Source: Armatimonadota bacterium (GTDB lineage Bacteria > Armatimonadota > Fimbriimonadia > Fimbriimonadales > Fimbriimonadaceae). From it: a stretch of 64,000 bases of DNA. Every line of letters starts with the position of its first letter. Position 1 is the first letter of the stretch. The stretch is from assembly GCA_016223145.1 (NCBI GenBank), contig JACRPN010000021.1:62001-126000 (forward strand), written 5' to 3'. A program made the translations under genes and the position numbers. Under the pieces are notes generated by a model that saw nothing but the letters and a program-made list of their open reading frames with translations, did not search any database and was not told the DNA's origin. Below are positions 5,259 to 39,741 of this stretch, in pieces.

Positions 5259-5310
5259 TTGGCAAATGCGCCAACATGCCCTATAATAGTAGACATATAT
5301 GCACTATATT
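5259..5310 (+). promoter_or_regulatory. Near-consensus promoter of imuB-dnaE2 with overlapping inverted repeat
   Basis: TTGGCA (5259-5264) and a perfect TATAAT (5282-5287) are spaced by exactly 17 bases. The predicted transcript start (about 5293-5295) lies only 4-6 bases before ATG 5299, so the message would be nearly leaderless. An inverted repeat with arms ATAGT (5286-5290) and ACTAT (5303-5307) surrounds the palindrome CATATATG and overlaps the -10 element, the position expected of a repressor site such as a LexA-type box. Which repressor binds is inference. Confidence 0.6.
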
Positions 5311-6510
5311 GTTTATGTGCGTCTGCTTCATTTCTATGCTTCAAGCCTTGCCGAATCCCGACCGGATCTTCAGGGCCGGCCATTCATCGTTCACAAAGAC
5401 AAGGCCGTTCTTGAAGCGAGCTCCGAGGCGCTGTCTCTCGGCATCGCGCCAGGCATGCGCCTGCAGGAAGCGAAAATCCTGCTCAAATCCAACTCTGGAG
5501 TCTGCATCGCATGGGAAGAGGATCTGTTTCGAGCCCATCAGGAGGCCTGGCTGGACGCGTGTTGCCGGTTTACCGACGTCGTCGAGCCCGACCGGCAGCA
5601 TGGGGCTTATCTCGACATCTCAGCGCACCCCGACCCCTTCGATATCGCCGAGCAGCTCGCCTTGAGTCTCAAGGACAACGGCTACATGGGCTCTCGAGTC
5701 GGGCTATCCCGGTGCAAATGGGTTGCGCTACTGGCCACCGAGCGCCTGAGCCTCGATGTCGGCAGCCCTGAATGGCGGGTCACGGCGTGTGAAGCCATCG
5801 AGCGCCCGTCGGAGTTCCTTGCGGCGTTCCCCACCGATTGCCTGTTGCCGGTGCTCCCCGAGCATCGGCAGCGGATAGGCTTCCTGGGCTACCGCACGAT
5901 CGGCGAAGTGCAGCGCATCCCCATGCGGGTGCTCAAGGAGCAGTTCGCGGAGCACGCACCCCTGATCCACGCTGCATCGAGGGGCGGCATATCGGAGCCC
6001 GTCGCTGCGGTGTATCCCAAGGCGCGCGTGTTGGCGGCAGTCGCCTTTGAGGGGGGAACCGATTCGCCTGAGACCCTGGATCGAGGCCTGCGCGATCTCG
6101 GCCAACGCGTCGCCGGCATGCTGATGCGGCGGGACGCCGTCAGCTACCACCTTCAACTTGAGATCGAATACGAAGACGGCAAGTTGGAACCCCGACAAAG
6201 GGTCTTCGCCAAGCCCATTTCCAACCTTGCAAGCGCGATCATGGCGATCCGGCTCCTCACGGGGGAACGGTTTCAGCAGCCTATCGTGCGGATCTCAGTA
6301 AGGATCGACAAACTCGAACCCGCGCAGAAGGAGCAGTACGAACTCGGCGGCCGAACCGCCTCTACGGTCCAAGCGCTGCACCTCGGCAACGCGTTTCGGT
6401 CCATCCGCACGAGCTTTGGCGACCGCGCCATTCAGAGCGGCGCCTCTCTCCCCCTAACGAGGCGCGAAAGGGTACTGAAAGCCTGGAAGGAAGCGACGGG
6501 CTGGGTGTAA
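5299..6510 (+). CDS. imuB: ImuB-like catalytically inactive Y-family polymerase
   Basis: Accessory subunit of the DNA-damage mutasome that links DnaE2 to the sliding clamp. The fold is recognisable from FYASSLAE near the N-terminus, the EASSEALSLGIAPGM region and the HhH/little-finger regions. The Y-family catalytic acids are missing: the first DxD site reads VYVRLLHFYAS and the SIDE motif reads QHGAYLDIS. That is the hallmark of ImuB as opposed to Pol IV. 403 residues. The C-terminus contains SLPL, only weakly like a clamp-binding motif. The gene ends 2 bases before dnaE2, so the two are co-transcribed. No imuA gene is visible. Confidence 0.82.
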   Translation: MHYIVYVRLLHFYASSLAESRPDLQGRPFIVHKDKAVLEASSEALSLGIAPGMRLQEAKILLKSNSGVCIAWEEDLFRAHQEAWLDACCRFTDVVEPDRQHGAYLDISAHPDPFDIAEQLALSLKDNGYMGSRVGLSRCKWVALLATERLSLDVGSPEWRVTACEAIERPSEFLAAFPTDCLLPVLPEHRQRIGFLGYRTIGEVQRIPMRVLKEQFAEHAPLIHAASRGGISEPVAAVYPKARVLAAVAFEGGTDSPETLDRGLRDLGQRVAGMLMRRDAVSYHLQLEIEYEDGKLEPRQRVFAKPISNLASAIMAIRLLTGERFQQPIVRISVRIDKLEPAQKEQYELGGRTASTVQALHLGNAFRSIRTSFGDRAIQSGASLPLTRRERVLKAWKEATGWV

Positions 6511-6512
6511 AG

Positions 6513-9500
6513 ATGGATCCCAAAGACCGCAAGCAACCGCCTGACAACACGCTTCTGGCGCGATGGCGCGAAACCGGCGAGTGGTGGTCCGGCGCCCCAC
6601 AGCTTGAGTTTGCGCGTTATCTCGATGGGCGAGGCATTCGGCGTGAGAAGTCTAGGGAGGGACCCAGCATCGGCCAGTTCCGTTCGACGCCACCCAAGCC
6701 CGAGGATCAGGACTACCACGACGAATGGAACCTGCGCCTGAAGAAGACGCGCGACGAGAAGGTCGCCAAAGCCTGCGGCCTCATCCCCAAAGAGAGGATT
6801 TTGGAGGATGAAGCCACCTCGCCCCATCGGGGAGAGGTCGGTGAACGAAGTGAACCGGGTGAGGGGGGAATGGGTCCGAGGTCTCAGGTCCGAGGTCCGG
6901 GTCCCGAGGGGAAACAGGGACAAAGGGACGAAGGGACAAAGGGACGGAATCCCACCTCGCCCCATCGGGGAGAGGTCGGTGAACGAAGTGAACCGGGTGA
7001 GGGGGGAATGCAATCACCTCGTGAACGCAAAAAGGAAGAAACCCTCTCCATCGGTGAAGCACTGACCCCCTATGGCGTCTCACGAAAAGAGGTAGGCCGC
7101 GCCAGAAGGCTCGGAACGCTCACCGAACTGAGCCCGCAACACGCGATCAGAACCTCGAAACTACATAGCGTCTCGAACTCGACAAAACCTCTAGAGCGCA
7201 ACTCCAGAGGAGCATTGCCGAGACCAAAGGGCCGACCTGCTGGAGCGAAGGGCGAAGCCCTGGACCGTGGCGCCCAATCGGAGCCAAGCCCCGAAGGGAC
7301 GACACGACTGACCCTACCCTACGCCCCATTACACCTCTACACCGGATACGCCTTTGGCCGGGGCACCATGCTCGCCGAGGAAATCCCGCTCATTTGTGCT
7401 GCGGCCGGCATCAAGGTGGCTGCCATCGCCGATCCGTTCGCACTCACGGGCTGCGTCGAGTTCGTCAAGCGGTCAAAAGCCTCCGGCATCAAACCCCTGG
7501 TCGGTGCCAGCGTCCAACTGCCCGAGGGCGGCTGGCTGGTGCTCATCGCCAAAACCAAGGTGGGCTACCAGAGCCTCTCGGAGCTGCTTTCCGCGTGCCA
7601 TCTGGATGAGCCCAGGCAGTTCCCCATGGCCACTTGGTCCCGTCTGCAACGTTACAGCCGCGATCTGATCTGCCTGACCGGAGGTGACATCGGTCCGCTG
7701 GATCGCTTGCTTGTTCAAGGCCAACTCCCAGAAGCGCAAAAACTTGTCGAGCGGCTTTGCGAGATCTACGGGCGCTCGAACGTCGCCATCGAAATCGAGA
7801 TGAGCTATCTGCCCTGGCAGATCGTCGCCAACCGCCGCCTGCTCGAACTGGCGGAGGCCTGCGAAGTCCTGCCCGTAGCGGGGGGTTGCATCACCCACGC
7901 AAGGCCGCAACACTTCCCCGCCCAGGACATGCTCGTCTGCGCCGAGACGCTGTGCACCGTCGACGAGATCATCGGGCGCAAGCTCCAGCGGGAAGCCAGC
8001 CAGCCTCAACTCGACCCGCGCCCCGAGCGAGCCATCAACGCCGAGCGCTACCTGAGAACCCCAGCCGAGATGACGCGCCTCTTCGTCGACCGTCCGGACC
8101 TTCTCGAAAACACCCTCCGTATCGCGGATCGCTGCGAGGACGACGTGCTGCCAGGGCGCACCCGTCTGCCCGAAATCTTCCCGGACCCCTGCCACGCATT
8201 GAGGGAAATCACGTTGGCGGGGGCTCACCAGCACTATGGGACGATGCAGCCCAGGCTCAAAAGGCGCATCGAGCAGGAGCTTTCCCGCATCAACGCGCTC
8301 AACTTCGCCGACCACTTTCTCGCGATTTGGGACGCCTGCAATTGGGCTCGCGAGCAGGGCATCCAGTTCAGCGGACGGGGGTCGGTGGTGGATTCCGCCG
8401 TCGCGTATTGCCTGGGGCTCTCGCGCATCGACGCCTTCAAGCACAACCTCCACTTCGACCGATTCCTGCCCGCAGATGGCAGCAAGCGCCCGGATATCGA
8501 CGTCGACTTCGAGGCGCGGCGACGCGACGACGTCAGGCTCTATTTCGCTCGCAAGTACGGCGAGGACAGGGTTGCCGGCATCTCCGCCATCGGTGCTTAT
8601 TGCACGCGTGGCATCATCCGGGAAGTCGGCAAAGCGCTGGGACTACCCAACGAAACCATCGGGTTCCTGGCCAAGAAAGTGCACGGGGGAATCCCTCCCG
8701 ACCAGCTTGAATCGGCGCTCACCAGCAGGCCCGAATTGGCGGGTTCGGGGATTCCCAAAGAGCGGTTCCGCTGGGTCTTTGAACTCTCGGAGAGGCTGAT
8801 GGACATCCCGCGCAACATGCGCTCCCACTCGAGCGGCCTGCTGCTCTCCAGCCGCCCGATCCGCGAGACCGCCCCGCTCCTCTGGAGCGCCTCACCGTTT
8901 TCCATGGAGCGGATCCCGAGTAATGGTGATCAGGTTTTCAGGTTTTCAGGTTTTCAGGATTATTCAGCAGCTATTGCCCACTCTGACGATAGACATCTCG
9001 CCCCTGAGCACCTGAGCACCCAAAACCTGAACACCACTTCCTCCCCCCTCTTCCCCATCATCCAGTGGGACAAACGCTCGGCCAAGCACTTCTTCGACAA
9101 GTTCGACATCCTCTGCCTGCGCGGCCAGGACGTGCTTTCGGGAACCCAAGAGCGCATACGGCTGAGAGCGAGGTCTGAGGTCCGATGCCCGAGGTCCGAG
9201 GCATCGCGAAGCGAGGAATCTGATCGTCATCCTCTTTGCGATAGTCAAATAAAGTCTGTTTCAGGGGAGAGTCACAGCAGATTCCTCGCTTCGCTCGGAA
9301 TGACGCCGGCACCGATTCCCTCCCCCCAGCACCCAGCACCCAACACCCAACACCATCCCTACGCCGATTTCAGCGTTGAGCGCCTCCCCACCGACGATGA
9401 GGAAACCTACCGCGCCATGCGCTCGGGGGAACTCATCGGCATCCCGCAATCCGCATCGCCCGCCATGCGCCAGGCACACATTCGCCTGAGAACCCAAGAC

Positions 9501-11120
9501 CTGCACGACGCGAGCTTGGTTCAAGCGGGCATCCGCCCGGGGGTCGGCGGCGCCGTCAAGATCAACGAACTGATCGCCCGGCGGCGGGGCAAGCCCTACT
9601 CCTTCGAGCACCCCGAACTGGAGCGCATTCTGGGACTGACCTACGGGATCATCGTGTTTCAGGAGCAGGTCGACCAACTCTTGCAGACCTTCTGTGGCTA
9701 CACCAGCGGCGAGGCCGAGGACATGCGCGAGGCGATCCACAAGCGCCGAAGTGAAGATTACGGCCGGCAAATGAAGGAGCAGATCGTGGCCAAAGTGCTC
9801 TCGAACGGCTTCAGCGCGTCCGTTGCGGAGCAGGTCTACGATTACGTCTCGGGTTTTAAGGGCTATGGGTTCGCCCAGGGCCATGCCCTCGCGTTCGCTG
9901 AGATTTCCATCCGCTCCATCTATTGCCAGCAGAACTTCCCCGCCGAGTATTTCGCGGCCCTGCTGACCGCCCAGCCGGCGGGCTATTACGGCGAGAGCAC
10001 GCTCTGCAACGAGGCACGCATTCGCGGTGTGAAGATGCTCCCTCCAGATGTGAACCTAAGCCAGGTCACCTATTCGGTCGAAGACGTGAAGTCGGACATG
10101 GATCCGAAGATCGTGCTGCCCAACGCCGCGATCCGGGTTGGACTCATGCGCGTGCAAGGGCTATCAAAGGAGACAAGGGAGAGGATCACCAGAGGTGATG
10201 GGGATGGTGAGAATTGTATGTATGGTGAGAGTGGTGAGAGTTGTCTCCGGAACGACTCTCACCATGCGTACAATCCTCACCACTCTCACCACTCTCACCA
10301 TCCTCACCAGTTCTTTTCCTTCTTCGACTTCGTCCTGCGCGTCCGACCCGACCGTGACGAGCTTGAGAACCTCATCCTTTGCGGTGCGCTGGACTCCCTG
10401 CATCCCAACCGCCGAGCCCTGCTCTGGGCAATCCCAAGCGCGATAGAGTTCGCGGAATTGCACGGGGCGATGCACGATGCGCGAATAAAGAGAAGTGGTT
10501 CTCAGGTGGTCGGGTTGTCAGGTCTTCCGGTCCGGCCTGAAAACCCAACACCCGAGAACCTGAACACCCCAGCACGTCGTAAACCGTCAATCTCAAATCG
10601 TAAATCCGAAATTCCCCTCCCCCTCTCCTTCCCCGAACCCGAACTCCCCACAGGCATCGAGGACTTCTCAGAAGCTGAGAAGGCGGTCTTTGAGCGCAGT
10701 CTCCTGGGCCTCGACGTCGAGCGGCACCTGATGGCGTTTGAACGGGAGCGAGTACGAAACCGTGGCGGGATCACCTGCCTTGAAGCGAAATCTCTCGCAC
10801 CCGGCCGCAAAACGATCGTCGTCGGCAACCCGATCCGGCTGCGCTTCCCACCGACGCCCAGCGGAAAGCGCGTGGTGTTTTTCGACCTGGAAGACGAAAC
10901 GGGGCTCCTGAATGTGACTTGCTTCGACGCCACGTACCGGCGGGATGGGCACGCCATCGTGTGCTCACCTTACGTGACGCTGATTGGTGTGGCACAGGAT
11001 CGAGACGGCCACACGGCCTTCCTGGCGCAGAGGGTCTTCCCCTATCACCCCGTCCTCGGCAAGCTCACCCCCGCCGATACGGCGCTACCCCTCACCACGG
11101 CCGATTTCTTAGCGCAATAA
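6513..11120 (+). CDS. dnaE2: Error-prone DNA polymerase III alpha subunit DnaE2/ImuC with in-frame repeat insertions
   Basis: Translesion polymerase of the ImuB/DnaE2 mutasome. The PHP domain begins near residue 270 (YAPLHLYTG), the palm carries GRGSVVDS and the acidic PDIDVDF (Asp 661/663/665) with the third Asp in KFDIL (865), then YGIIVFQEQV, the HhH region and a C-terminal OB-fold near 1410-1500. At 1535 residues it is some 400 longer than usual DnaE2 (about 1050-1150). Much of the excess is repeat-like, low-complexity inserts at about residues 101-166, 805-846, 882-949, 1227-1267 and 1328-1369, whose DNA matches intergenic repeat families in this window. Catalytic motifs are intact and no stop interrupts the frame. 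A short N-terminal segment with GEWW (residues 14-50) precedes the first insert. Confidence 0.92.
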   Translation: MDPKDRKQPPDNTLLARWRETGEWWSGAPQLEFARYLDGRGIRREKSREGPSIGQFRSTPPKPEDQDYHDEWNLRLKKTRDEKVAKACGLIPKERILEDEATSPHRGEVGERSEPGEGGMGPRSQVRGPGPEGKQGQRDEGTKGRNPTSPHRGEVGERSEPGEGGMQSPRERKKEETLSIGEALTPYGVSRKEVGRARRLGTLTELSPQHAIRTSKLHSVSNSTKPLERNSRGALPRPKGRPAGAKGEALDRGAQSEPSPEGTTRLTLPYAPLHLYTGYAFGRGTMLAEEIPLICAAAGIKVAAIADPFALTGCVEFVKRSKASGIKPLVGASVQLPEGGWLVLIAKTKVGYQSLSELLSACHLDEPRQFPMATWSRLQRYSRDLICLTGGDIGPLDRLLVQGQLPEAQKLVERLCEIYGRSNVAIEIEMSYLPWQIVANRRLLELAEACEVLPVAGGCITHARPQHFPAQDMLVCAETLCTVDEIIGRKLQREASQPQLDPRPERAINAERYLRTPAEMTRLFVDRPDLLENTLRIADRCEDDVLPGRTRLPEIFPDPCHALREITLAGAHQHYGTMQPRLKRRIEQELSRINALNFADHFLAIWDACNWAREQGIQFSGRGSVVDSAVAYCLGLSRIDAFKHNLHFDRFLPADGSKRPDIDVDFEARRRDDVRLYFARKYGEDRVAGISAIGAYCTRGIIREVGKALGLPNETIGFLAKKVHGGIPPDQLESALTSRPELAGSGIPKERFRWVFELSERLMDIPRNMRSHSSGLLLSSRPIRETAPLLWSASPFSMERIPSNGDQVFRFSGFQDYSAAIAHSDDRHLAPEHLSTQNLNTTSSPLFPIIQWDKRSAKHFFDKFDILCLRGQDVLSGTQERIRLRARSEVRCPRSEASRSEESDRHPLCDSQIKSVSGESHSRFLASLGMTPAPIPSPQHPAPNTQHHPYADFSVERLPTDDEETYRAMRSGELIGIPQSASPAMRQAHIRLRTQDLHDASLVQAGIRPGVGGAVKINELIARRRGKPYSFEHPELERILGLTYGIIVFQEQVDQLLQTFCGYTSGEAEDMREAIHKRRSEDYGRQMKEQIVAKVLSNGFSASVAEQVYDYVSGFKGYGFAQGHALAFAEISIRSIYCQQNFPAEYFAALLTAQPAGYYGESTLCNEARIRGVKMLPPDVNLSQVTYSVEDVKSDMDPKIVLPNAAIRVGLMRVQGLSKETRERITRGDGDGENCMYGESGESCLRNDSHHAYNPHHSHHSHHPHQFFSFFDFVLRVRPDRDELENLILCGALDSLHPNRRALLWAIPSAIEFAELHGAMHDARIKRSGSQVVGLSGLPVRPENPTPENLNTPARRKPSISNRKSEIPLPLSFPEPELPTGIEDFSEAEKAVFERSLLGLDVERHLMAFERERVRNRGGITCLEAKSLAPGRKTIVVGNPIRLRFPPTPSGKRVVFFDLEDETGLLNVTCFDATYRRDGHAIVCSPYVTLIGVAQDRDGHTAFLAQRVFPYHPVLGKLTPADTALPLTTADFLAQ
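6814..7010 (+). repeat. Two exact 59-bp repeat copies (family A) inside dnaE2
   Basis: Bases 6814-6872 and 6952-7010 are identical over 59 bp. They are 138 bp apart (46 codons), so both are read in the same frame, as TSPHRGEVGERSEPGEGGM. Between them is a family B tract built from GGGACAAAGGGAC units (6913-6949). Diverged copies of family A lie between genes at 28947-29025 and 44749-44830, both in reverse orientation. Confidence 0.9.
8925..9050 (+). repeat. CAGGTTTTCAGG-type inverted repeat (family C) inside dnaE2
   Basis: Tandem GGTTTTCA units on the left face CCTGAGCACC and AACCTGAACACC units on the right, so the RNA could fold into a long imperfect hairpin. It is translated in frame within residues 805-846. 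The same family lies between genes at 20998-21088 and again in dnaE2 at 10494-10590. Confidence 0.8.
9156..9357 (+). repeat. Composite hairpin repeat (GCGAAGCGAGGAATCTG/CAGATTCCTCGCTTCGC) inside dnaE2
   Basis: The left arm GCGAAGCGAGGAATCTG and the right arm CAGATTCCTCGCTTCGC are exact reverse complements about 60 bases apart. They are followed by tandem CCCAGCACCCAGCACC units at 9323-9355. The segment is translated in frame (residues 882-949) just after the third catalytic aspartate region. Confidence 0.8.
10191..10311 (+). repeat. GTGAGAGT/ACTCTCAC inverted repeat (family D) inside dnaE2
   Basis: GGTGAGAGTGGTGAGAG-type units are followed by their complement, CTCACCACTCTCACC-type units, giving a histidine-rich in-frame insert (residues 1227-1267). 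The same units occupy the gap upstream of hslU (20401-20670). Confidence 0.8.
10494..10617 (+). repeat. Second family C inverted repeat inside dnaE2
   Basis: CTCAGGTGGTCGGG and GTCAGGTCTTCCGG units face CCTGAAAACCCAACACC and GAACCTGAACACCCC units. The segment is translated in frame (residues 1328-1369) between the HhH region and the C-terminal OB-fold. Confidence 0.75.
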
Positions 11121-20395: not shown

Positions 20396-20719
20396 GAGGT
20401 GTGGGTGAAGACTCAGAACAACTCTCACCACTCTTGCGATTCTCACAAAATCGCCCTAAAGATCTCTCTCCAACCTGCCGTCATTTACTGATGTAGGAGC
20501 ACTCCGCTCAAACAGAAACAGGGCACGACGGGGGTAACCCCGCTCACGCAAAGCCTAGGGTCTCTGGAGCCTTGTGAGGATTGTGAGAGTGGTGAGAATC
20601 GTGAGAATCGTCCGGAACTCCGGAATCAACTCTCACCAATCTCACCAGATTCACCCTTCTCACCGTTCCGAGAAAGCCGGGTTGCCTGTCTGAGATCGTG
20701 GGCTGCCGTGGAGCAAGCC
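20396..20719. repeat. Intergenic GTGAGA/TCTCAC repeat tract (family D) between hslU and flgM-like gene
   Basis: Near 20410-20450, ACTCTCACCACTCTTGCG-type units; near 20573-20613, GTGAGGATTGTGAGAGTGG units; near 20630-20665, TCTCACCAATCTCACC units. Opposed units can pair into long hairpins. The same family lies in frame in dnaE2 at 10191-10311. Promoters for both flanking divergent genes must lie within or around it. Confidence 0.7.
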
Positions 20720-20995: not shown

Positions 20996-20997
20996 CG

Positions 20998-21088
20998 GGT
21001 GCTCAGGTGCTCAGGTGTTCAGGTGTTCGGAAGCTGAGTTTAAGGGCTCTATCCTGAAAACCTGAAAACCCGAACACCACAGCACCAA
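20998..21088. repeat. Intergenic family C inverted repeat
   Basis: Left part: tandem GCTCAGGTGCTCAGGTG and TTCAGGTGTTCGG units. Right part: CCTGAAAACCTGAAAACC and CGAACACCACAGCACC units, roughly their reverse complement, with about 25 bases between. The same family occurs in frame in dnaE2 (8925-9050, 10494-10617). Here it fills the gap between two convergent genes and could act as a bidirectional terminator-like hairpin. Confidence 0.75.
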
Positions 21089-28944: not shown

Positions 28945-29103
28945 GTGCCGCCTCACCCCCGTTCACTTTGTTCGCCGAAGGAACCGGGGCAGGCACCGAC
29001 CCTCTCCCACGAGGGGAGAGGGAGTCATCGCCTCACCGACTCACCGTTTCTCCCCTTCCCCTGTCTCCGTCTCACCCACTCTCCGACTCTCCGACTCACC
29101 GTC
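28945..29103. repeat. Intergenic family A repeat followed by ACTCTCCG/ACTCACCG tandem tract
   Basis: 28947-29025 is a diverged reverse copy of the repeat found twice in dnaE2: CCTCACCCCCGTTCACTTTG, then ACCGACCCTCTCCC and ACGAGGGGAGAGG. It is followed to 29103 by short tandem units such as CTCACCGACTCACCG and CTCTCCGACTCTCCGACTC. Confidence 0.75.

Positions 29104-36059: not shown

Positions 36060-39741
<3,682 letters not shown>

Follow-up and report, generated by a model that had tools for sequence, protein, structure and literature searches.

Several described kinds of dispersed bacterial repeats bear on the locus reported here. The part of the study by Rehm et al. (2015; PMC4692102) drawn on here reports arrays of G-rich heptamers, with the unit GGGNATC in Xanthomonas and GGGGAYT in Nostoc; a Xanthomonas genome holds about 180 such arrays, most of them intergenic and a minority located within genes. 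Di Nocera et al. (2013; PMC3733652) described palindromic REPs tagged with GTAG or CGTC that reside in frame in genes for replication and repair, that for DnaE2 among them, with double REP insertions occurring within a single gene, and speculated that the REP-tagged repair genes may have an altered activity (e.g. a mutator effect). The Rickettsia palindromic elements (Ogata et al.; reviewed in PMC10969869) form families of about 150 bp, encode a conserved peptide and are found in frame in many unrelated genes. In the P6b region of the Nostoc trnL intron, the arms of the stem consist of complementary 7-nt repeats with a variable number of units (PMC4476775), and MacGregor (2015; PMC4679880) reported TAACTGA heptamers from Beggiatoaceae, Cyanobacteria and Bacteroidetes, which are sporadic in distribution, have spread by an unknown route and are in some cases located inside ORFs.

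The phenomenon described here, encountered in a window of 64,000 nucleotides (the whole stretch of DNA to which positions refer) from an uncultured bacterium of the phylum Armatimonadota (Fimbriimonadaceae), is real, and it is an extreme case of repeat kinds already described in other bacteria. Short G-rich tandem repeats, missing from the closest relatives, number in the hundreds in this genome, and dozens lie in frame within working genes, at the highest density in that for DnaE2, which has six in-frame inserts.

The DnaE2 gene and the composition of its inserts

The host gene (positions 6513–11120 of the window, forward strand, as are all the inserts given below) encodes a DnaE2 (ImuC)-type error-prone DNA polymerase of 1535 aa, as identified by alignment and by profile searches (NCBIfam PRK05672, E = 4e-155; Pfam PHP, DNA_pol3_alpha, finger and HHH_6 domains). 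Directly 5' of it, on the same strand (5299–6510), lies a gene for an ImuB-like Y-family polymerase (Pfam IMS and IMS_C), the product of which is weakly matched by DNA polymerase IV models. Measured from stop to stop, DnaE2 has a median length of 1204 aa among the 36 sequences compared and reaches 1289 aa in two copies from the same genus, as opposed to 1535 aa here. An earlier note, made from the sequence alone, had singled out five low-complexity inserts in this protein (residues ~101–166, 805–846, 882–949, 1227–1267 and 1328–1369), and an alignment with 18 relatives confirms all five as insertions specific to this genome; the complete set of inserts has no carrier among the 36 sequences of the wider comparison. 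The note was likewise right in placing the inserts outside the catalytic motifs: both PDIDVDFE and DKFDILCLRGQ are undamaged, and the neighbouring alignment columns are largely invariant.

The inserts are a mixture of at least three kinds of element, namely arrays of 7–9-bp units, frequently accompanied by a second, inverted arm, a dispersed element of 59 bp designated A1, and a REP-like element. Insert A (6814–7010) consists of two identical copies of A1 (6814–6872 and 6952–7010) flanking two G-rich arrays, one with 7-bp units (6873–6909) and the other with 8-bp units (6916–6946). Insert B (8921–9044), missing from relatives, is a hairpin composed of a G-rich 8-bp array (8925–8958) and a C-rich arm (9003–9036). 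Insert C (9168–9354) combines a G-rich (9169–9201) and a C-rich (9325–9354) 7-bp array with a perfect 17-bp inverted repeat (9206–9222/9278–9294), and its site in a congeneric genome is a clean gap. Inserts D (10188–10312) and E (10495–10600) are hairpins with arms of 9-bp units (GTGGTGAGA) and of degenerate 8-bp units (GGTnnTCA), respectively; the latter insert is missing from the congener and has 15 blastn matches in the sampled part of its own genome. More generally, the 8-bp units of the hairpin arms are GGTTTTCA-like. The description of the inserts as hairpins, put forward in the earlier note, applies to four of them: compared with dinucleotide shuffles, inserts B (z = −4.5), C (z = −3.4 for 9170–9310), D (z = −6.4) and E (z = −3.5 for 10497–10582) fold as DNA beyond chance, whereas insert A folds no better than chance (z = +0.5 for its array part and −1.0 for A1).

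At sites B and D the congener holds residues of its own, and these do not recur as multicopy sequence in the 1.2 Mb sampled from it. The possibility that the inserts are conserved ancestral features, which the earlier note had itself proposed to check in orthologous genes, is rejected, since relatives lack these segments and the residues of the congener at site D are not multicopy.

The sixth insert (approximately 7215–7310), situated in the N-terminal linker, is REP-like. Its blastn matches include a sequence (C5:138352) adjoining a gene for a RAYT-type transposase (Y1_Tnp, at C5:138613), and the piece corresponding to residues 246–263 of DnaE2 has five dispersed matches in the own-genome sample. 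As judged by reading the copies, GTAG is present in the transposase-flanking copies (CCCTGGTAGGC) and absent from the copy in DnaE2 (CCCTGGACCG). This genome has 12 matches to Y1_Tnp of the RAYT type, versus four in each of two congeners, and a transposase of this type is a plausible agent behind the REP-like piece. The adjoining part of the linker (approximately 7020–7215) is also specific to this genome; the 1.27 Mb sampled hold no second copy of it, and it was therefore not assigned to the repeats.

An AlphaFold model of DnaE2 residues 270–1460 (17 sequences; mean pLDDT 63.5, pTM 0.46) is of modest quality. Its low-confidence residues 793–845, 884–953, 1230–1264 and 1324–1372 coincide with inserts B–E, which is weakly suggestive of unstructured loops, as low pLDDT is expected wherever homologues leave a segment uncovered.

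The repeats in the rest of the genome and in other lineages

When the inserts were searched against the sampled part of the genome, as the earlier note had recommended, dispersed multicopy matches were found. Within the window, two intergenic hairpins belong to the same families as the inserts, one built of 9-bp units (20570–20665, fold z = −3.2) and matching insert D in blastn, the other built of 8-bp units (20996–21088, fold z = −4.6) and matching inserts B and E. A third gap, to which the note had assigned the same units (28945–29103), holds, by eye, an A1-like piece together with a different array. A1 itself has 48 BLAST matches in 1.27 Mb of the genome; its sense peptide is like TSPxRGEVGERSEPGEG, and at least one further frame appears open in the DnaE2 copy.

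Our statistics cover 1.27 Mb of the 3.87 Mb of this genome and, for the congener (G001), 1.2 Mb of 2.9 Mb, and are based on home-made gene calls in metagenome assemblies. Short-period arrays number 202–205 in the former sample versus 10–15 in the latter; for units of 7–9 bp the density is 161 per Mb (205 arrays) here versus 8 per Mb (10 arrays) in the congener, with 102 of the 205 arrays having units of 7 bp, 77 of 8 bp and 26 of 9 bp. Frequent units are GAGGTCY, AGGGACNN, GGTGTTCA and GCGAAGG. Two array patterns are restricted to this genome among those compared: the pattern GAGGTCYGAGGTCYGAGG has 100 matches here and none in 84 other genomes of the family, and the pattern AGGGACNNAGGGACNNAGGGAC has 67 matches here and none in 200 other genomes of the phylum. 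The arrays are also depleted in coding DNA, as 119 TRF arrays lie outside and 83 inside predicted genes, which translates into 831 per Mb of noncoding versus 74 per Mb of coding sequence.

The claim that selection keeps the inserts translatable is better read as a filter against stop codons and frameshifts. In arrays located in coding sequence, the YGA codons comprise 21 CGA and no TGA in frame, versus 71 CGA and 31 TGA out of frame and 210 and 203, respectively, in intergenic arrays, the absence of in-frame TGA being partly circular because open frames had been chosen. A1 is coding in 15 of the 44 copies scored. All 11 sense-strand copies are read in one and the same frame, several of them being tandem and the number of independent cases correspondingly smaller, and a pure stop-codon filter may be insufficient as an explanation of this uniformity. 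We also considered whether the arrays are tolerated through an intrinsic lack of stops and rejected the idea, with 0.70 of the six readings open in intergenic arrays and 0.72 in other intergenic DNA.

DnaE2 was seen in the earlier note as the invaded gene; it is the richest host but not the sole one. Across 179 reciprocal-best orthologues, insertions of at least 15 aa number 31 in this genome versus 12 in the congener. Sixteen of the 31, distributed over nine of the orthologues, are repeat-derived, as judged by a minimum of five dispersed matches elsewhere; a further one that reaches this number lies in a glycine-rich protein and was treated as ordinary. None of the 12 insertions of the congener is repeat-derived, each having at most one dispersed match. 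DnaE2 supplies four of the 16, to which inserts B and D are additional. The gene ligA for the NAD-dependent DNA ligase (36626–38791, forward strand; NCBIfam PRK07956) contains 48 aa encoded by in-frame AGGGACNN arrays (37106–37258), an insert that is missing from the congener and has 25 dispersed matches in the own-genome sample. Further hosts, as annotated by Pfam, are a biotin carboxylase, a molybdopterin oxidoreductase, an aldehyde dehydrogenase, a Mur-ligase (FolC-like) protein, an ADP-ribosylglycohydrolase, a SufB/D core protein, an NrfD/4Fe-4S fusion and an RNase H-like protein. The host proteins are conserved enzymes whose domains remain recognisable.

Repeats of this sort were met in two other lineages, and bursts of them therefore arise more than once. 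In a representative of another genus (G021), the N-terminal linker of DnaE2 is filled in frame, at several places, with multicopy repeats that belong to that genome itself (63 matches) and are unrelated to those described above; the same linker has thus been filled independently, which marks it as a permissive site. A genome from another family of Armatimonadota (G274) contains 7–9-bp arrays with other words (CAGGGANN, GTGGACA and GTTGCTGTC), 22 of them in 204.5 kb of contigs selected for holding such arrays. Its pairs of arrays within 200 bp in this sample comprise six GG and two CC, and the order G-rich then C-rich was seen by eye at two loci.

Origin of the inserts

We consider it probable, at roughly 0.8, that dispersed repeats spread in a burst confined to this lineage and that purifying selection then acted as a filter, leaving stop-free and frame-preserving copies in loops and linkers. 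The burst would comprise many families of G-rich 7–9-bp arrays (often as G-rich/C-rich hairpins), the 59-bp A1 and REP-like elements, all landing chromosome-wide. Selection would purge those insertions that introduce a frameshift or a stop or that disrupt a protein core, open copies in loops or linkers would survive within the reading frame, and slippage would likely alter the number of array units afterwards. The insertions, their many copies, their restriction to this lineage, the polarity of the arrays, their scarcity in coding DNA and their absence from the replicative DnaE are directly documented; beyond this, we infer that the inserts are near-neutral, that full-length DnaE2 protein is produced and that the repeats have a mobilising mechanism. 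DnaE2 is the array-richest gene of the sample (five arrays), an excess that concerns a single gene, in which the inserts may not be independent events; the excess is probably due to the length, the permissive linkers and the accessory role of this polymerase rather than to specific targeting.

The same excess might be taken as a sign that DnaE2 is decaying. The protein is an accessory, SOS-type enzyme, and under relaxed selection its gene would gather insertions en route to becoming a pseudogene, which would agree with its array count, the highest in the sample, and with the replicative DnaE (1157 aa), in which arrays were looked for and none was found. We nevertheless regard decay as unlikely, as 1535 codons stay open across six inserts, the invariant polymerase columns are retained, and inserts are also found in genes of an essential type, such as ligA.

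Still less probable, in our opinion, is that REP-type elements target repair and replication genes and that the inserts alter the activity of the polymerase, for instance with a mutator effect. The idea draws on the several bacteria with REPs in DnaE2, uvr and rec genes (PMC3733652), on the presence of both DnaE2 and LigA among the hosts in the genome studied here, and on the repeats in the same DnaE2 linker of another genus. However, most of the remaining hosts are metabolic enzymes, the sequences of the inserts vary between sites and lineages, and the inserts avoid catalytic motifs.

The arrays have a fixed polarity. Among 61 pairs scored within 200 bp, 25 inverted pairs have the order G-rich then C-rich and none the order C-rich then G-rich, the two arrays having the same sense in the remainder; when the distance is widened to 400 bp, three pairs of the reverse order are found. 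When only adjacent arrays are counted, the ratio is 17:0, with clustered pairs not being independent. Such polarity would fit several models without favouring one of them, for example a mobile element bounded by terminal inverted repeats, or a break at which both 3' ends are extended. It would also be expected if an unrecognised enzyme system extended DNA ends with short G-rich units prior to their joining, since the joining would yield G-rich-then-C-rich order as in fused telomeres, and hairpins would be continually made in this way, including in coding sequence. We give this idea little credence; if true, it would mean that the bacterium keeps gaining hairpins and thereby new protein loops. 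A telomerase-like or DRT-like reverse transcriptase was considered as a source of the arrays and rejected as unlikely, because the genome has no RVT_1 match. A search for plasmid proteins with an improvised query returned no match. Finally, an artefact of assembly or binning is highly improbable even for a metagenome-derived, multi-contig assembly about 1 Mb bigger than those of both congeners, given the hundreds of distinct arrays with unique flanks, the reading frame preserved in conserved enzymes, the contamination of 0.12% and the same kind of array in a genome from another family of the phylum.

Comparison with known systems

The repeats have their closest known counterparts among the systems introduced at the outset. 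The arrays share with those of Xanthomonas and Nostoc, in the part of the description considered, their dispersed and G-rich nature, an excess in noncoding DNA and close convergent pairs with the order G-rich then C-rich; in both cases the G-rich strand is the coding strand right after genes and the non-coding strand right before them. According to the same part of that account, Xanthomonas and Nostoc each have one main unit per species, whereas many 7-, 8- and 9-bp families coexist in the single genome studied here, and its frequent units differ from GGGNATC and GGGGAYT. In-frame insertion in conserved enzymes with empty orthologous sites occurs here and is not described in the portion of PMC4692102 used for the comparison. 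Intragenic REPs are tagged palindromes of 20–40 bp, in contrast to the inserted sequence of DnaE2, which is mostly made of short-period arrays and A1; one of the inserts does resemble a repeat flanking a RAYT gene, without the GTAG of that copy.

The likeness to Rickettsia palindromic elements, suggested in the earlier note, holds for the in-frame invasion of unrelated proteins (nine of the 179 orthologues here), which is comparable in its effect, and A1, like those elements, is read mainly as one peptide. It does not extend to a defined palindromic family of about 150 bp with one peptide, as at least three kinds of element are involved here, the arrays vary in length and family and A1 has 59 bp. 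The hairpins of Nostoc P6b are located in intron RNA, whereas the arrays described here are also found in protein-coding sequence. TAACTGA is a single A/T-rich unit, located mostly just 5' of start codons and with intragenic copies mainly at protein ends, in contrast to the G-rich families of this genome.

The locus provides a clear case, controlled by empty sites in a congener, in which conserved enzymes have taken up hairpins of short tandem repeats as well as REP-like DNA. It opens the way to tests of how DnaE2, LigA and biotin carboxylase tolerate insertions in their loops, and of what spreads G-rich 7–9-bp arrays, which are sporadic among unrelated bacteria. As far as the open-licence literature was compared, the number of unit families per genome, the six inserts in one gene, the empty orthologous sites and the phylum in which they occur are new.
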